DNA of 32,095 nucleotides. It comes from Deltaproteobacteria bacterium (lineage in GTDB: Bacteria > Myxococcota_A > UBA9042). Shown here piece after piece: positions 6,257 through 24,477 of the stretch (positions are counted from its first letter, which is position 1; each line of letters begins with the position of its first letter). The stretch is from contig JACRCU010000423.1 in assembly GCA_016218865.1 (NCBI GenBank), positions 1 through 32,095 of the forward strand, read 5' to 3'. The translations under genes were made by a program, and so were the position numbers. The notes beneath the pieces are model-generated. The model saw nothing but the letters and a program-made list of their open reading frames with translations. It searched no databases and was not told the origin of the DNA.

Positions 6257-9631
<3,375 letters not shown>

Positions 9632-15329: not shown

Positions 15330-18300
15330 CTATTTGCAGTCGGCGCAGGTCGAACCCATGCACGCGGAGCCGGCGACGCCCGTGCCCGCCGCGTTGCAGC
15401 AGTCGCCGTAGGACTTGCAGTAGGTGTCGCAGTAGCAGCCGGTGCCGCTGCCCCCGCAGTGGGTGTCGCAGTAGTGGCTCGACGCGCAGTCGGCCGAGCA
15501 ATTGCTTGGGGTCTCGCCAGACTCGCACTTGCCGTTGCCGCACACCGGCGAATTCCAGCAGTCGGCCCAGCAGTTGCTCGGGGTCTCGCCGGACTCGCAC
15601 TTGCCGTTGCCGCACTGTTGGCTCGGGCAGTACAAGGAGTAGTCGGGGCAGCAATCCCCCGCCGCGACGCACCCAGTGTCGCACAAGCAGGTGCCGGTGC
15701 TGCCGGCGCCGCCGCACTTGCCGGCGCACGACCCGGCTTGGGCTTTGCAGGTTACGCCGTCGCCGGTGTAGCCGGTGAGGCACTTGCAGGTAAAGGACCC
15801 GGCGGTATTGGTGCAGGTCGCGTAGGCCGAGCAGTTGTCGCTGCCCAGGCTGCATTCGTCGACGTCGCTGCAGGTCTTGCCGTTGCCCGTCCAGCCGGGC
15901 TGACAGGTGCAGGCGTAGCTGCCGGCGGTGTTGCCGCACGAGGCGTGGCTGTCGCACTGGGCGGTGCCGGCTTTGCACTCGTCGATGTCGGTGCAGCTGC
16001 TGCCGGTGCCCGTCCAGCCCGGCTTGCAGGTGCAGGTGTAGGCGCCGGCCGTGTTGCTGCAGTCGGCGTGGGTATCGCAAGTGGCTGTGCCGGCTGTACA
16101 TTCGTCGATATCGCTGCAGGTCTGGCCGTTGCCGGTCCAGCCCGGCTTGCACGCGCAAACGCGGCTGCCCACCGTGTTGGTGCACTTGGCCTGCGGCGAG
16201 CAGTCGCCGTTGTTGCTGGCGCACTCGTCGATGTCGCTGCAGCTGGCGCCGTCGCCGGCAAAGCCCTTGGCGCACTGGCAGGCGGGAGCGAGCGTGTCGT
16301 TGTTCAGGCAGAGCGCGTTCTTGTCGCAGGGGTTGAAGACCGCGCACACATCGATGCCCGGCGACTGCAGCGCCACCGGGCCGCCCACGGCGGTCACCGG
16401 CGCAAGACCGTCGCTGCAGGTGACTTGGACGATCAGCTGATCGCCCACCTGCAAGGGCTTGCCGTCGGCGCGCTTGGTCTTGAGCAGGTCCAGCGACGTG
16501 GCCGTTGCCCCGCCAACCAGCGCAATTCCGCCAACTTGCCAAGTGCTCTGGCACACTACGGCCTCGCCGTCGGCGTCGAGCGTAGCCGCCCCCGGGAGCT
16601 GTGCTGCGATCGAGCCGACGAGGTCGGCCTTGGTCGGCACCACCACCGCAAAGGCCGGCGGCGGCGCGTTGGCGACGACCAGTTGCGCCTGGACGGGCGG
16701 CCCGCTGGCATAGCCATCGCTCGCGACCACACTGACCTGCACGACTTGACCCTTTTTTGCCGTCAGAGCCGGCAGTTGCGGGCCGGTGCCGGCGGGCTGA
16801 CCCCCGACACTCCATTGGTACTTGTAGGTGATCTGCTGGCCGGCGCCGACATCGGCGTCCGTGGCCGGGGCGGCCAGTTCGACTGCAATCACCTGGGTGG
16901 TGTCCGGCGCGGCCGGCTTGAGCGCGATCTGCGGCGCCCCTGGCGGCAGGTTGCCGTAGACCGGCACCGGCCACTGGCCCAGACTCGCCCCTTTGCCGCT
17001 GCGCAGGGTCAGGTTCCACAGGTGCCAACCCGGCGTCGTCTCTACGAAACTGACCGACTGGGCGCCGGCCTGCAAGCTGGCGTGGCGGGTGTCGTCGGGA
17101 TCCGCCAGCACCCACAGTTGCGGCGGGCTGTCGCTGTAGCCCTTGCCCACCGACAGCGTCGCCACCAGGGGCAGCGCCTGGCCCACGCTGACCACGTGAG
17201 TGGCCGTCTGGCTCAGGTCCACGCTGGCGCACACCAGGCCGTCGCCAAAGCTGCCCGGGGCGCACGCGCAGGCGGGCTGCAGCGACAGGTTCTCGGTGCA
17301 CAGGGCCGTGGCCGCACAGGGGCGCAGGGGGCTGGCGCACACCGCGTCGCCGCCGACCACTGCAATGGTCACCGCGCCGCTGGCACTGGTCAGCGCGCCG
17401 TCGCTCGCGGTAGCGGTAGCGGTGAGCACGTCGCCCTGCTTGGCCCACGGTGCCAGGTTGGCCACGACGGCGCTGGTGCCGCTGGCACCGGGTACGGGAC
17501 TGCCGTTGACTTGCCACTGCACCGTCACCTCCACGGGGTCGCCGTCGGCGTCGACCGCGGGTTGCGGCGCCAGCGCCACTTCGGCCGTGCCCAACAGCGA
17601 AACCTGTGGATTCTTGGCGGCGAGCACGGGCTTGGCCGGCGCGGCGTTGACGAAGGTCACCGATGCCACCGCCGCCACGCCGATGTCCAGACCGTCGCTG
17701 GGGGTCGCATGGACCTGCCACATCTCGCCTTTCTTGGCGACCTTCGCCGGCAGCGTCGCGCCGGAGAGTAGGGGGACTCCGGTGGCCTTCTGCCACACGA
17801 ACGTCCAGGTCAGCGCCGCGCCGTCCGCCGCATCCGGGTCGGTCACGCCGCCCACCACGCTGGCGGTCACGCTGTCCAAGGTCGTCGGCGCGGGGTTCGA
17901 CAGGGCCAGTTCGGCCAGGCCCTTGGGCGGCTGGTTGACCGTCGCGGGGTAGTCCTGCTGCCAGATCGGCTTGCCGCCGGCCGCCACCGCCACCCGCAGC
18001 GTGTGCGATCCCGCCGGCTGCACAGTGGCCACAAGGCTGGCCAGGCCGGTCGGCGGGGTGGTCTGGGCGGTCGCCAGGGTGCTGCCGCTGGCCAGGTCGA
18101 CCACGCTGAGCAGGATCTCTTTGCCCTGCACGACGTTGGAGTCACCCACGCTGACCGGCAGTTCGCCGGCCGCGGGCAAGTGCAAGGTGGCGCCCGCCGC
18201 CAGATCGGCCAGCGGTCCGCCCAGCTTCAGGCACGTGTGCCCGTCGCCCACATAGCCCTTCTGGCAGAAGCACTTGGGCTCGGTGCTGTCGCTCTCGACG

Positions 18301-19550
18301 CAGTCGGCGTGGTCGCCACACGGCTGCAGCAGCGGGCACAGCTTGGCGGGCCCGACCTGCCACGACACCGGCAGCGACGTGGCCGTGCCGAGGCCGTCGC
18401 TGCTCGTCGCGCGAACCTGAATCAAACTGCCCACCACAATCGGCTTTTTCAGGAGCAGGGCCAGCTCGATCAGGCTGTGCTTGCTGGCCACCGCGCCAGA
18501 GACCGTTTCGCCGTCGACCTGCCACTGCAAGGTGGTGGTGAGCGGGTCGCCGTCGGGGTCGCTGGCCGGCTGGTCGACCGCCACCGCGGCTACGCTGCTC
18601 AGGTCCAGCGGTGCGCTGCCGGTCGCTGCCAGCACCGCGGGCTGCGGCGGGGCATTGCCGATCTGCACCTGGGCGGTGGCCGGCAAGCTGGACGAGTGGC
18701 CGTCGCTCACCAGCAGCGTTACCGCCACCGTCTGGCCCTTCTTGGCCTGACCGGCGGGCAGCACCGGCCCAGTGGCGGCCGCGGCCACACCGTTGATGTG
18801 CCATTGCTGGGCCTGCTGAAGGGCCTGGTTCTCGGGATCGCTCGCCGGCTTGAGGATTTTGACAGCGATGGCATCCAGAACGGTGGGCGCCAGCGGCTCC
18901 AGGCCAATCTCGGGCTGGCTGGGGCGCCCGTCCACCTGCAGCTCCAGCGTCAGCGTGGGGCTGTCCGCCGCCGCGGCCGTCGAGTGTGCGGCCAGCTGCA
19001 CCTGCCACGGCCCCGGCGCTTCGGGCACGGTGACGGCAAAATGGAGGCTGCTACTGCCGGGTTGCAGGACCTGGTTCTGCGACCACGTGCCGCTGCCGTC
19101 CCACAGCCGCAGGGACCACGCCGCCGCGGCGCTCACCTGCTGTACCTGCACCGTCAGGTCCAGGGTCGTGGCCGGATACACGGTGGTGCCCGCCGCCGGA
19201 CTGGTTACGGCGATTTGCGGCCACAGCGGGCCTTGCCCGTCTGCCGCACCGTCGCCGACCGGGGTATCCAGCGCGCCGCCATTGTCGTTTGGGTCGCCGC
19301 CGTCGGCCGCCGAACCGCAGGCCGCCAGCGCCACCAGCCCCGCGCCCAGGACCAGCCGCAGCCAAGGGCGTACACTGCGGTTCGCCGGCGAACCACAATC
19401 AGGATGATCGCAAGATAGGATGCGGTAAAGGATATTTGCGAATTCGGTTCCACGAAAAACGCAGCGTTGCCGGGAATGGGCGGGGCTGGTGGTAGGTGTA
19501 GCCATGGTGGTCCTCGTCGGCGCGGGCGGCGGCCCGTTCGGGGTGCGCAT
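15330..19550 (-). CDS. Large mosaic lipoprotein: Ig/PKD-like modules, EGF-like and calcium-binding EGF domains, somatomedin-B-like Cys-rich domains
   Basis: Lipobox LVLGAGLVALAACGS; 'DPDGDPLTTTLQWQVDG' PKD/cadherin-like; 'DIDECxxxxxxCDxHAxCxNTxGxYxCxCKPGWTGxGxxC' repeats; 'CAGKCGGAGSTGTCLCDTGCVAAGDCCPDYSLYC' SMB-like. Start uncertain: ATG 19550 (TGATG overlap with upstream gene) or ATG 19505, both far from the lipobox. Confidence 0.85.
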   Translation of the reverse strand: MRTPNGPPPAPTRTTMATPTTSPAHSRQRCVFRGTEFANILYRILSCDHPDCGSPANRSVRPWLRLVLGAGLVALAACGSAADGGDPNDNGGALDTPVGDGAADGQGPLWPQIAVTSPAAGTTVYPATTLDLTVQVQQVSAAAAWSLRLWDGSGTWSQNQVLQPGSSSLHFAVTVPEAPGPWQVQLAAHSTAAAADSPTLTLELQVDGRPSQPEIGLEPLAPTVLDAIAVKILKPASDPENQALQQAQQWHINGVAAAATGPVLPAGQAKKGQTVAVTLLVSDGHSSSLPATAQVQIGNAPPQPAVLAATGSAPLDLSSVAAVAVDQPASDPDGDPLTTTLQWQVDGETVSGAVASKHSLIELALLLKKPIVVGSLIQVRATSSDGLGTATSLPVSWQVGPAKLCPLLQPCGDHADCVESDSTEPKCFCQKGYVGDGHTCLKLGGPLADLAAGATLHLPAAGELPVSVGDSNVVQGKEILLSVVDLASGSTLATAQTTPPTGLASLVATVQPAGSHTLRVAVAAGGKPIWQQDYPATVNQPPKGLAELALSNPAPTTLDSVTASVVGGVTDPDAADGAALTWTFVWQKATGVPLLSGATLPAKVAKKGEMWQVHATPSDGLDIGVAAVASVTFVNAAPAKPVLAAKNPQVSLLGTAEVALAPQPAVDADGDPVEVTVQWQVNGSPVPGASGTSAVVANLAPWAKQGDVLTATATASDGALTSASGAVTIAVVGGDAVCASPLRPCAATALCTENLSLQPACACAPGSFGDGLVCASVDLSQTATHVVSVGQALPLVATLSVGKGYSDSPPQLWVLADPDDTRHASLQAGAQSVSFVETTPGWHLWNLTLRSGKGASLGQWPVPVYGNLPPGAPQIALKPAAPDTTQVIAVELAAPATDADVGAGQQITYKYQWSVGGQPAGTGPQLPALTAKKGQVVQVSVVASDGYASGPPVQAQLVVANAPPPAFAVVVPTKADLVGSIAAQLPGAATLDADGEAVVCQSTWQVGGIALVGGATATSLDLLKTKRADGKPLQVGDQLIVQVTCSDGLAPVTAVGGPVALQSPGIDVCAVFNPCDKNALCLNNDTLAPACQCAKGFAGDGASCSDIDECASNNGDCSPQAKCTNTVGSRVCACKPGWTGNGQTCSDIDECTAGTATCDTHADCSNTAGAYTCTCKPGWTGTGSSCTDIDECKAGTAQCDSHASCGNTAGSYACTCQPGWTGNGKTCSDVDECSLGSDNCSAYATCTNTAGSFTCKCLTGYTGDGVTCKAQAGSCAGKCGGAGSTGTCLCDTGCVAAGDCCPDYSLYCPSQQCGNGKCESGETPSNCWADCWNSPVCGNGKCESGETPSNCSADCASSHYCDTHCGGSGTGCYCDTYCKSYGDCCNAAGTGVAGSACMGSTCADCK
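15725..16350 (-). repeat. EGF-like repeat array (one EGF plus four tandem calcium-binding EGF-type units)
   Basis: CAVFNPCDKNALC...GDGASCSDIDECASNNGDC..., DIDECTAGTATC, DIDECKAGTAQC, DVDECSLGSDNC in series. Confidence 0.85.
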
Positions 19551-20140
19551 CAGTGGCGCCCAGGCGCGGGCGGCGTCGCCAGCGGGATGGCCCGGTGCAC
19601 GGGCAGGCCGGTCGGCAGGCGCGGGCTCGCCTGGCGCGGCGGATCGTCGACCCTGGGCGCGGCCCGGCCAAAGCGCTGCACACTGCGGGCGTGCACACCG
19701 CCGTCTGCCGCCTGCCAATCCAACGCTACCGTCAAATCACCAGGTTGTGTGCGGTCGGCGCGCACCACGAACTGCAGCACGGCTTCGCCGGAGCGCGGCC
19801 GCTGGATTGGCAAGTTGCGCGGCTGCTGCAGCACTACCAGCCCCGGCGGCGCCTGCAGCGTCATGCGCAGGGCGCCCACGCCGGGCGACTGCCACACCAC
19901 CCGCAGGCGCAAGGTGGTCGCGCGGCCGACGGGCAGCGGCCGATCGGTCAACCACCGGGCCAGCAGCGGCGCGGTCACGGGCGTGGCGTGAGCGGGCAAG
20001 GCCGCCAACCATGCCAGCGCGATGGTCAGCCAAGCTCCCAGCACCCACCAAGGGCGCGCCGGACCCGGCCCGCATGGCCGCCCACGGCCCGACGAATGCA
20101 GCGAGCCGGCTCCGCCCGGTTCCAGAGAGGTTGGTGTCAT
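19550..20140 (-). CDS. Exported 196-aa protein, beta-sandwich-like (BatD/DUF11-type feel), unknown function
   Basis: ATG at 20138-20140 overlaps the upstream gene's TGA (ATGA); hydrophobic signal 'WWVLGAWLTIALAWLAALPAHA'; 'ATTLRLRVVWQSPGVGALRMTLQAPPGLVVLQQPRN' beta-rich. The ORF track hides it as the C-terminal part of 19550..21931. Confidence 0.72.
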   Translation of the reverse strand: MTPTSLEPGGAGSLHSSGRGRPCGPGPARPWWVLGAWLTIALAWLAALPAHATPVTAPLLARWLTDRPLPVGRATTLRLRVVWQSPGVGALRMTLQAPPGLVVLQQPRNLPIQRPRSGEAVLQFVVRADRTQPGDLTVALDWQAADGGVHARSVQRFGRAAPRVDDPPRQASPRLPTGLPVHRAIPLATPPAPGRH

Positions 20141-23100
20141 GGGCCGCTCCCAACTTTGCAGAGTGGTTGCCCGGTGTCGTAAGGCCACAGGCCTACCGTC
20201 GCCTGCACCAGGTTCGCCGCAAAACCCTTGCACAGCAGCGCATCCAGGAAGTCGGCGACCATCGGCACGGGCTCCTTGGTGTCGACCACATTGACGAAGC
20301 TGCCCGGGTACCACGTCGTCCAGGTGTGCCGCGTATAGCCGCGCGCGTAGGGCGCCTTGGTCATTCGCGGCGAGCTCAGGGCGCTCCACAGCGGCGCCAG
20401 CTCGGGCGTGCTCAGGCCGCCGCTGCCGACCTTGACCAGCTCCCACAGCCAGGCGGCGACCAAGTTCTCGTCCATCTTTTGCAGGATGCCGCCGCTGGCG
20501 GTCGCCGGCACGAACAGATCGCCAAAGCTGGTGGCGTGGCTGGCCAGGTTCATCCAGAAGGACGAGCCTTCCTGGACGTCGAAGTACAGTGGATCGTTGC
20601 GCATGGCCGAGGAGTGCCAGGTGGCGAATCCCTCGGACCAGGCCTGGCCCGGGAAGGTGGGCACGCCGATGAAGTGGGTGCCGCCCTCGCCCGGCGACGC
20701 GCCCCAGCTCTGCATGACCCAGTGCCCCAGCTCGTGATCGGTGACGGCGATCGCCCACTGCTCCTCGCCCGTGCTTTCCCACGGCAGCCAGATGCTGCTG
20801 GCGATCGGCGTGCCGCCGATGTGGGCGGTGAGCCCATCCCAGAAGCAGGCGCCGCAGGTCCAGGTGACGTTGGGCCGCATCCAAATCGCCAGCGGCATGC
20901 CGGGCTTGCCGAAGGTCTTGGCGTGCGCCGCCGCCGCCTTCTGCACCGCGTCGAAGGCGTAGGCCGCGGCGCTGGCTTGCGCGACCGTCAGCAGCCAGTC
21001 GCCGCCGTCCTTCCACTGGGAGGCGGGCAAAGTCCAGGCAAACACACTGGGATCGCCCCAGGCGACCGACTCGGGATCCCTCATCCCCGGCGACAGATCC
21101 GGCTCGGCCACGGTGAAGTCGACGGTGGCGCCGTGGTTCGAGAGGCGCACCAAGAGCACCGCAATCTCGTCGCCCAGCTGCGGCTGGGCCGGCACGGGCA
21201 GGGCCACATGGCCGCTCGCATCGGTGATGGCGCTGCCAAGGGTCAGCGAGCCGCCGTTGCCGTCGGGACGCCGGCTGACGACCAGCGCACCCGCCAGCGG
21301 CGCGGCGGATGGCGTGGAACTCCAGCCCGTCTTGCTCGCGTTGACCACTGTGTACTGGAACCGCCAGGTCATGTTCAGGGTAGCGGTGGCCAGCCCGCTG
21401 CACACGGCGCCGCTGTCGTGATCCACGCAGCCCGGGCACGCAGACTTCACCGGCACGCCGTCGCTGCTGCAGTCGATGCGGGTGTCGGCGGTCTTTGGGT
21501 CGCAGGTGCTGGATCCGGGCGCGCAGGTGCCGCTGGCGACGCACTGGGCCTTGCCAGCCACGACCTTGCAGACGGCGCCGTTGTCGCACGGTGTGAACAC
21601 CAGCTCGGGCGTGCCGCCGCTGGGCTTGAAGCACGCGGCCACCGTCTTGCCGTCGCCCAGGCAGATGCCGGCCTCGGGGATGCCCTGGCAGGCGTCGGCG
21701 ATGCACGCATCCTGGTTGGCGTCGCAGCCCAGGGCACAGGTCTGGGCCACCGCACCCAGATTGCCACAACTGTCGAACCAGCAGAGGTTTTGCCCGCAAC
21801 AGCCCTTGCTGGCCTGGGGCGTGCATTGGCTCTGGCAGGCCAGCGGATACTGGCCGCTGGGGTCGGCGCCGCCGTCGGTGCACGCGTAGTACTTGTTGAT
21901 GGGGTCCCAGCCACAGGCCTTGTTGGTGCACTGGAACGTGTAGATTGTATTATTTTCGCAGTATTTCAGCGTGTTGTTGTCGCAGCAGCCTTGGTAGCTG
22001 ACACCGGGGCACTGGCTCGGCACGCAGGTCCCGCCGGCCGTGCAGGTCGAGCCGGCCGCGCAGCCGCCGCAGCTGCCGCCGCAGCCGTCGGAGCCGCACG
22101 CTTTGCCGGTGCAGTCCGGGGTACAGCAGTTGCCGCTGGCCAGGCACACGCCGGAAGTGCCGCACTTGCCGCCCGCCAGGGGCACGTTCTGGCAGCCGCC
22201 GCCGCTGGAGCAAACGTCGGTGGTGCAGGCATTGCTGTCGTCGCAGTTGACCGCCTTGCCGCCCTTGCAGCTGCCGTCCAGGCAGGCGTCGCTCTGGGTG
22301 CAGGGGTTGCCGTCGCTGCACGAGCCCGCCGCCGGCGTGAACACGCAGCCCTTGGCTGGGTCGCAGCTGTCGCTGGTGCAGGGGTTGCCGTCGCCGCAGA
22401 GCAGGCCCGTGGCGCTGACGCAGGCGCCCGCGGCGCAGGACTCGCCGGTGGTGCAGGCGTCGCCGTCGTCGCAAGGTCCGGGCTGTGGGGCATGGTTGCA
22501 GCCGCCGCCGATGCTGCAGTTGTCCGCGGTGCACACGTTCTGGTCGTCGCACACGCTGGGGTCGACTTGCGAGGTGCAGCCGGTCGAGGGCTTGCAAGTG
22601 TCGATGGTGCAAGGATTGCCGTCGTTGCAGGTCACCGCTGGGCCGCTCTGGCACTGGTTGGCGGCGCAGACGTCGCTGCCGGTGCAGGCGTTGCCGTCGT
22701 CGCACGGGCCCGCGGCGGCGCTGTGCTGGCAACCCAGGCTTGCGCTGCAACTGTCGGCGGTGCAAGGGTTGCCGTCGCCGCAGTCCAGCTTGCCGGTGCC
22801 TGCGCAGGTGCCGGCCTGGCAGGTGTCGCCGGTGGTGCACGGATTGCTGTCGCTGCAGGCGGCGCCGCTGGCCGGCGTGTGGATGCAGCCGTCGGTCAGC
22901 GAACATGCGTCGGTGCTGCACGGATCGCCGTCGCTGCACAGGTTGGCCGCGTCCGGCAGGGCTGCGTGGCTGCAGCCGCTGGCTGGGTCGCAGCTGTCGG
23001 CGGTGCAGGCCAGCCCGTCGCTGCAGTCGGTGGCGGCGCCGCTCCCGCACGCGCCGAGCTTGCACACCTCGCCGGTGGTGCACGGGTTGCCGTCGCTGCA

Positions 23101-24477
23101 CGGGCCGCTGAGCCACGCGTGTTGGCAGCCGACCGCCGCGTTGCAGGTGTCGGCTGTGCAGGTGGCGCCGTCGCTGCAGTCCACCGCCGGACCGGCCGCG
23201 CAGGCGCCGCTGGCGCAGGCGTCGCCCTGGGTGCACGCGTCGCCGTCGCTGCACGGGCCGGCAAAGGGGCTGTTCATGCACCCGACGATGGCGTCGCAGC
23301 TATCGGCCGTGCACGGATTCTCGTCGCCGCACACGGTGGCCGCGCCGGGCAGGCACAGGCCCGCGCTGCAGAGGTCGCCCAGCGTGCAGGCGTTGCCGTC
23401 GCTGCAGGGGCCGCCGGTCGGTGCATGCGCGCAACCCAGGTCGGTGTCGCAGCTATCTTGTGTGCATGGGTTGCCGTCCTGGCAGTCGACCGCCACGCCG
23501 CCGCCGCATTGGCCGCCCGCGCAGGCCGTGCCGGCGGTGCACGCGTCCCCGTCGTCGCAGGGGCCCTGAACGGCGGCGTGGTGGCAGCCGCTGGCCGCAT
23601 CGCAGCTGTCGGCCGTGCACGGGTTGCTGTCGCCGCAGGGCAATGTGGCACCGCCGACGCAGGCGCCCGCGCTGCAGGTGTCGGCCATGGTGCACACGTC
23701 GTCGTCGCTGCACGGACCGGTCGATGGCGCGTGCTCGCAGCCCGTGGGGCCGCAAGCATCGGTGGTGCAGGCCTGGCCGTCGTCGCAGTCGACCTTCTGG
23801 CCCGCGCACTGCCCCGCGGTGCAGGTGTCGCCGTTGGTGCACGGGTCGCCGTCGCTGCACGTGCCGCTGCCGGCCGTGTGGCTGCAGCCGTTCTTGCTGT
23901 CGCAGCTGTCCGCGGTGCAGGTCAGGCCGTCGTCGCAGCTGACGAGCAGGCCGCCGCTGCAGGCGCCGCCAGCACAGGCCTCGCCCAGAGTGCACGCGTC
24001 GCCGTCGCTGCAGGGGCCGCCGGTGGCGCTGTGGCCGCAAGTGCCGGCCTGGCAGGTGTCGCTGGTGCAGGGGTTCTGGTCGTCGCATGTCCGCGGGGGG
24101 CCGCTGGTGCAGTGGCCACCTTGGCAGAGGTCGGGATCGCTGCAGCCGTCGCCGTCGCTGCAGGTCGCAGCGTTGGCCAAGTGCGTGCAGCCGCTGGCCT
24201 TGTCGCAATCGTCGCTGGTGCAGGGGTTGCCGTCGTCGCAGCTGGTCGCGGCCACCGCTTGGCACACGTGGTCCACGCAGCTGCGGGTGCAGGGGTTGCC
24301 GCAGTCGGCGGGTACCTGGCAGCGCTTGCTGGCCTGTGCCGAACTGCCGTCGCCGCACCCGCCGAGCAGGGCTGTGACCAGGGCCGCGAGCAGCCAGCCG
24401 ACCAGCGTCGCCCCTGGGAGCCGAGCGACCACCCAATGCGTGGGTGGCTCGCCAGCGTGCCGAGCTACAAGGGCCAT
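20137..24477 (-). CDS. CTDC-type Cys-rich repeat lipoprotein with C-terminal zincin-like (HExxH) metalloprotease-like domain
   Basis: ATG at 24475-24477 preceded by GGAGAGGGAGG Shine-Dalgarno; lipobox LVTALLGGCGDG; >20 'C(S/D)DGxxCTxxxxC' units; C-terminal 'VTDHELGHWVMQSW...AWSEGFATWHSS'. Confidence 0.87.
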   Translation of the reverse strand: MALVARHAGEPPTHWVVARLPGATLVGWLLAALVTALLGGCGDGSSAQASKRCQVPADCGNPCTRSCVDHVCQAVAATSCDDGNPCTSDDCDKASGCTHLANAATCSDGDGCSDPDLCQGGHCTSGPPRTCDDQNPCTSDTCQAGTCGHSATGGPCSDGDACTLGEACAGGACSGGLLVSCDDGLTCTADSCDSKNGCSHTAGSGTCSDGDPCTNGDTCTAGQCAGQKVDCDDGQACTTDACGPTGCEHAPSTGPCSDDDVCTMADTCSAGACVGGATLPCGDSNPCTADSCDAASGCHHAAVQGPCDDGDACTAGTACAGGQCGGGVAVDCQDGNPCTQDSCDTDLGCAHAPTGGPCSDGNACTLGDLCSAGLCLPGAATVCGDENPCTADSCDAIVGCMNSPFAGPCSDGDACTQGDACASGACAAGPAVDCSDGATCTADTCNAAVGCQHAWLSGPCSDGNPCTTGEVCKLGACGSGAATDCSDGLACTADSCDPASGCSHAALPDAANLCSDGDPCSTDACSLTDGCIHTPASGAACSDSNPCTTGDTCQAGTCAGTGKLDCGDGNPCTADSCSASLGCQHSAAAGPCDDGNACTGSDVCAANQCQSGPAVTCNDGNPCTIDTCKPSTGCTSQVDPSVCDDQNVCTADNCSIGGGCNHAPQPGPCDDGDACTTGESCAAGACVSATGLLCGDGNPCTSDSCDPAKGCVFTPAAGSCSDGNPCTQSDACLDGSCKGGKAVNCDDSNACTTDVCSSGGGCQNVPLAGGKCGTSGVCLASGNCCTPDCTGKACGSDGCGGSCGGCAAGSTCTAGGTCVPSQCPGVSYQGCCDNNTLKYCENNTIYTFQCTNKACGWDPINKYYACTDGGADPSGQYPLACQSQCTPQASKGCCGQNLCWFDSCGNLGAVAQTCALGCDANQDACIADACQGIPEAGICLGDGKTVAACFKPSGGTPELVFTPCDNGAVCKVVAGKAQCVASGTCAPGSSTCDPKTADTRIDCSSDGVPVKSACPGCVDHDSGAVCSGLATATLNMTWRFQYTVVNASKTGWSSTPSAAPLAGALVVSRRPDGNGGSLTLGSAITDASGHVALPVPAQPQLGDEIAVLLVRLSNHGATVDFTVAEPDLSPGMRDPESVAWGDPSVFAWTLPASQWKDGGDWLLTVAQASAAAYAFDAVQKAAAAHAKTFGKPGMPLAIWMRPNVTWTCGACFWDGLTAHIGGTPIASSIWLPWESTGEEQWAIAVTDHELGHWVMQSWGASPGEGGTHFIGVPTFPGQAWSEGFATWHSSAMRNDPLYFDVQEGSSFWMNLASHATSFGDLFVPATASGGILQKMDENLVAAWLWELVKVGSGGLSTPELAPLWSALSSPRMTKAPYARGYTRHTWTTWYPGSFVNVVDTKEPVPMVADFLDALLCKGFAANLVQATVGLWPYDTGQPLCKVGSGP
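22190..24250 (-). repeat. Alternating two-type CTDC Cys-rich repeat array
   Basis: Alternation of 'CxDGNPCTADSCDxxxGCxH' and 'CSDGDACTxGxxCxxGxCxxG' units, roughly 27 half-units counted by eye; highly similar at DNA level too. Confidence 0.85.

Follow-up and report, generated by a model that had tools for sequence, protein, structure and literature searches.

A predicted zinc-peptidase lipoprotein and a small exported Ig-like protein form a conserved gene pair across uncultured myxobacterial relatives

Organisation of the locus

The window, i.e. the whole stretch of 32,095 nucleotides analysed here, comes from contig C313 of a 5.3 Mb genome in 576 contigs. Three genes and the first of their junctions are as follows:

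20137-24477, minus strand: gene 1, a 1446-aa surface lipoprotein with a CTDC stalk and a predicted zinc-peptidase head
19550-20140, minus strand: gene 2, a 196-aa exported partner for which homologues were found
15330-19505, minus strand: gene 3, an EGF/Somatomedin_B mosaic lipoprotein, a neighbour outside the conserved module
20137-20140, minus strand: ATGA stop/start overlap of genes 1 and 2, read from the sequence
20147-20150, minus strand: GGAG, a Shine-Dalgarno-like sequence for gene 2, within gene 1 and six bases upstream of the ATG

Gene 1 starts at the ATG at 24477, preceded by GAGGGAGG, and stops with the TGA at 20139-20137; gene 2 runs from the ATG at 20140 to the TGA at 19552-19550. 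The original prediction that the stop of the CTDC/HELGH lipoprotein overlaps the start of a 196-aa gene was confirmed, with ATGA at 20140-20137 and the GGAG upstream, and the CTDC repeats (PF00526, E 4.7e-50), HELGH motif, EGF domains and Somatomedin_B domains it had named are all present.

Gene 2 was not called in the window by the codon-based gene finder. We accept it as a gene because of its homologues and its codon-position GC, which reaches 0.838 at the third position, falls in the high-GC class in the gene 2 frame over 20020-19781, and passes from the frame of gene 1 to that of gene 2 near 20140-20020. Scans for sigma-70 promoters and terminators scored at shuffle level only and were uninformative.

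The second junction and gene 3

Three further features mark the junction of genes 2 and 3:

19548-19552, minus strand: TGATG overlap; the letters are present, coupling is not supported
19511-19515, minus strand: GAGGA, a Shine-Dalgarno-like sequence five bases upstream of the ATG at 19505
19361-19480, minus strand: low-GC stretch (0.55) before the gene 3 coding signal, from codon-position GC

A stop/start coupling had been proposed for this junction as well. The TGATG and an ATG at 19550 in frame with gene 3 were indeed found, but nothing comparable to the GAGGA lies upstream of that ATG. The gene 3 codon pattern is absent over 19540-19361 and begins only near 19360, and the homologue that extends furthest N-terminally aligns to gene 3 from residue 70. 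On these grounds, and given the better ATG at 19505, we rejected the ATG at 19550 as the start of gene 3; the coupling part of the claim is not supported, and from the sequence signals the overlap is probably accidental. Together with the low GC, the same observations leave the start of gene 3 uncertain. As no in-frame ATG, GTG or TTG was found just before the gene 3 signal peptide, an anomaly of assembly or rearrangement is possible, and the leader at 19360-19550 may hold a frameshift, an assembly error or a rearrangement. Co-transcription of gene 3 with the other two genes is possible.

The three genes had been read as one adhesion and proteolysis apparatus, and they do share a strand, with only 45 bp from the gene 2 stop to the ATG at 19505. 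Against this, genes 1 and 2 occur together in three genomes of the same genus (G002, G004 and G005) with gene 3 not adjoining, and none of the other pair loci scanned has an EGF-rich gene directly after the pair; the sole EGF-rich gene near another pair (L016/L070) stands 3 kb downstream with other genes between. The relatives of gene 3 are also many, as it belongs to a large paralogous set of EGF lipoproteins (its own genome yields 30 matches, and each of the 15 genomes searched has some), and its closest homologues (G001, G003 and G000:C430) stand alone beside unrelated genes. The three genes thus fail to co-occur even within the genus, and we regard a three-gene apparatus as highly improbable; on these comparisons gene 3 is an ordinary neighbour and not part of the module. 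Elsewhere in the window (6257-9631, minus strand) we noted a lipoprotein carrying eight metal-binding repeats of the MopE type (PF11617).

Gene 1, a candidate zinc-peptidase lipoprotein

The features of gene 1 are the following:

24355-24366, minus strand: lipobox LGGC, read from the sequence
22180-24321, minus strand: CTDC-repeat (PF00526) stalk, limits approximate, 13 stretches, E 4.7e-50
20722-20736, minus strand: HELGH, putative zinc-binding motif; HExxH occurs in every protease locus listed
20632-20634, minus strand: Glu of (W)SEGFA, proposed as third zinc ligand from its spacing from HExxH

The signal peptide with its lipobox Cys (LVTALLGGC, by eye) marks the product as a lipoprotein. 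A Cys-rich stalk and a protease head had been predicted as parts of the shared apparatus, and both are found in gene 1; the same-genus orthologues (566-577 aa) are without the stalk, which as a shared part is therefore dropped and appears from these sequences to be a lineage-specific addition. The CTDC repeats are hugely expanded in each of eight genomes (G000-G005, G008 and G009), with at least 150 scored matches and more than 1200 first-look candidates in each, and 14 control genomes had none.

The C-terminal approximately 515 aa show 35-39% identity to relatives. HELGH (20736-20722) lies on helix 321-328 of a low-confidence model, as expected for a zincin, and is followed 33 residues past the HExxH His in most loci, and 32 in some, by the SEGFA motif, whose Glu is invariant in alignment A4 and keeps a fixed spacing in most loci; it is a candidate third ligand, and the zinc site of the same model is of low confidence. 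It should be noted that the head model is poor, with a pLDDT of about 40-65 in the catalytic part, and that its PDB matches are weak; for the beta domain they include transthyretin/SpaA-like folds, and the M4 enzymes aureolysin and vibriolysin are also among them. The beta domain also has a Big_6/bMG3-like Ig match in Pfam/NCBIfam.

No peptidase model of Pfam or NCBIfam matched the head above its cut-off, and membership of M6, M4 or M60 was not obtained; PDB profile searches returned nothing for the catalytic part, and tblastn against plasmids gave no match. Around HExxH the head touched a single named peptidase model, the M6 domain TIGR03296 (E 0.08, 12.8 bits, below the cut-off of 110.8). 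The gluzincins, which include the M4 thermolysin-like enzymes and M60, share HExxH and a downstream Glu with gene 1, and the weak fold matches to M4 point the same way; the M4 Glu stands closer to HExxH than that of gene 1 (about 30 residues past the second His). The best reading of these sequence features is a gluzincin-like surface peptidase of a family without a name.

Gene 2, a predicted Ig-like protein with a conserved tail

Two parts of gene 2 were delimited:

19667-19969, minus strand: Ig-like beta-sandwich, limits approximate; seven strands in the mature part by AlphaFold2
19580-19618, minus strand: conserved C-terminal tail motif from the partner alignment, reading LPTGLPVHRAIPL

The product consists of a signal peptide, an Ig-like beta-sandwich and a disordered conserved C-terminal tail, and no sequence family in Pfam or NCBIfam covers it. 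Modelled with AlphaFold2 from a six-sequence alignment (mean pLDDT 69.8), the mature part has strands at 9-13, 24-33, 39-46, 51-55, 69-78, 86-94 and 99-107 and hence the seven-strand sandwich of an Ig-like fold. Foldseek returned generic Ig-like folds, for example a FixG-related protein and macroglobulin domains. The sandwich topology is shared with Ig-like/macroglobulin MG domains; unlike these, gene 2 has no sequence family match and carries a conserved tail of its own.

In the model the tail is unstructured and of low confidence. Its motif reads [VI]xxGxxxxxA[IV]P[LIV], with the Gly kept in 27 of 31 alignment rows; in the region of the last strand a Gly is invariant, and a Pro where the domain begins is nearly so. 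In the fusions L087 and L089 (the latter by eye) the tail is kept but the sandwich is largely or wholly missing, which suggests that the tail itself matters. In a single example (L154) a small-domain protein beside an unrelated lipoprotein ends without the tail; in this locus (L154 5190-8044) the tail-free domain lies behind a 798-aa lipoprotein that matches neither Pfam nor the protease profile and is perhaps an alpha/alpha-barrel lyase.

The pair across the Myxococcota

Searched as a single sequence, the gene 1 head found its own match and one more at E 7e-4, missing the same-genus orthologues, which were reached through the neighbours of gene 2 and later by profile; a narrow-pattern scan of genome contigs gave five loci only. 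With the head profile, members of the protease family were detected in 24 of the 52 genomes from the class to which the window belongs and in 105 of the 379 Myxococcota genomes sampled. Among 55 distinct loci, the small gene adjoins the protease downstream on the same strand in 23, and in six more (L085, L100, L110, L136, L138 and L142, counted at E below 1e-6) the small domain is fused to the protease C-terminus in one open frame. The fusions fall in two family-level lineages, f5 within that class and f34 outside it. The remaining groups include 25 loci where the profile found no partner (all f41 loci examined, L081, L082 and others), two of which end at contig ends. As protease families without a partner exist, the partner seems to be an accessory that is not essential to the fold.

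In G002, G004 and G005 the orthologues of genes 1 and 2 are separated by an 8-bp gap, and across loci the gap ranges from 8 to 146 bp, hence tight translational coupling is not general for the pair. The converse search placed 18 of 20 strong small-domain matches in the class beside or inside a protease gene. The identity matrices of 29 pairs correlate with r=0.815, a value that partly reflects the shared species history of the genomes, against a maximum of 0.32 in 2000 permutations.

Neighbouring genes commonly stay linked in related genomes, and the adjacency might accordingly be ordinary operon conservation of exported proteins unrelated in function. We find this very unlikely, since the fusions occur in two separate lineages, the adjacency spans families and classes of Myxococcota as the flanking genes change, and nearly all of the small-domain matches in the converse search go with a protease. 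The predicted linkage of an exported protease and a beta-sandwich protein is thus upheld by conserved adjacency, natural fusions and the AlphaFold2 sandwich, and genomic comparison identifies genes 1 and 2 as a conserved pair across many uncultured myxobacterial relatives. Our literature search found no paper on the protease-partner pair.

Two observations were made on the f5 surroundings. Three loci (L079, L083 and L084) have a PIG-L/LmbE-like deacetylase gene after the pair. Fused or tail-only proteases are followed by a gene that is zinc-ribbon-like, membrane-spanning and TPR-like, the latter two by eye (L055 2-910, L059 135-893 and L061 2697-3641), two of these with a 4-base overlap.

Comparison with known systems

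The nearest working analogue is CpaA-CpaB of Acinetobacter, where the chaperone CpaB from the adjacent gene binds the protease CpaA 1:1 and blocks its catalytic site with a C-terminal tail (PMC7542363). The type II system secretes CpaA, a metzincin (M72), and a transmembrane domain anchors CpaB in the membrane (PMC7542363). Both systems have a zinc protease with Ig-like domains, adjacent co-conserved genes and a partner whose C-terminal tail matters or, here, appears to. They differ in that the protease here is a lipoprotein and gluzincin-like, its head reading HELGHWVMQSW and not the metzincin HExxHxxGxxH, and in that the partner can be fused; the analogy is one of working, not of descent. 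As head and partner fall outside the Pfam and NCBIfam models, the pair is a new form of an arrangement already known, in which a secreted peptidase has a partner of its own.

Proposed working of the pair

The simplest reading of the natural fusions is that partner and protease associate physically, and we lean, by a narrow preference, towards genes 1 and 2 being a protease-partner module in which the partner acts as a protease subunit in trans. Gene 1 would present a zinc peptidase of the HExxH...SEG[FW]A type, gluzincin-like and set behind an Ig/CNA-B-like beta domain, with the CTDC stalk holding the peptidase away from the membrane. The gene 2 product would be exported separately and use its Ig-like domain and conserved C-terminal tail to form a stable complex with the protease; the tail would dock on the catalytic domain, perhaps covering the cleft, and the docked partner could thereby stabilise or gate the enzyme. 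In other species the same small domain is built into the protease chain. Once bound, the partner could serve as an accessory or targeting domain, as a stabiliser or chaperone, or as an inhibitor.

Two narrower readings limit the partner to one of these roles. It may be a substrate- or surface-binding accessory domain in trans, comparable to the Ig-like or PPC domains at the C-terminus of secreted proteases, with the tail merely anchoring it and no inhibitor or chaperone role. The Ig-like fold with its generic matches (FixG-related protein, macroglobulin domains) and the C-terminal position of the small domain in the fused forms agree with such a binding domain, and the survival of the tail beyond the sandwich in L087 and L089 speaks against it; we consider it possible but doubtful. 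Alternatively, the partner could be an inhibitor or immunity-like protein that silences the peptidase in the producer, the fused tail then being a C-terminal pro-segment. The conserved tail, the tail-only fusions and the CpaB precedent speak for silencing, and the many proteases without a partner, along with the lack of an identified cleavage site or release step, speak against it, which makes it unlikely.

We further speculate, quite tentatively, that a pro-segment acting in trans controls this unnamed peptidase family. It would be a separately exported Ig-like protein whose conserved C-terminal tail docks into the protease, captured in some lineages as a C-terminal fusion and reduced in others to the tail alone. 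The series from two genes through full fusion to tail-only fusion offers a clear way to test what a partner in trans does for a secreted protease, whether controlling or equipping it. The Myxococcota include many predatory members and their surface enzymes are poorly known; the present family would add to these a widespread, unannotated surface peptidase with a partner predicted from genome context.
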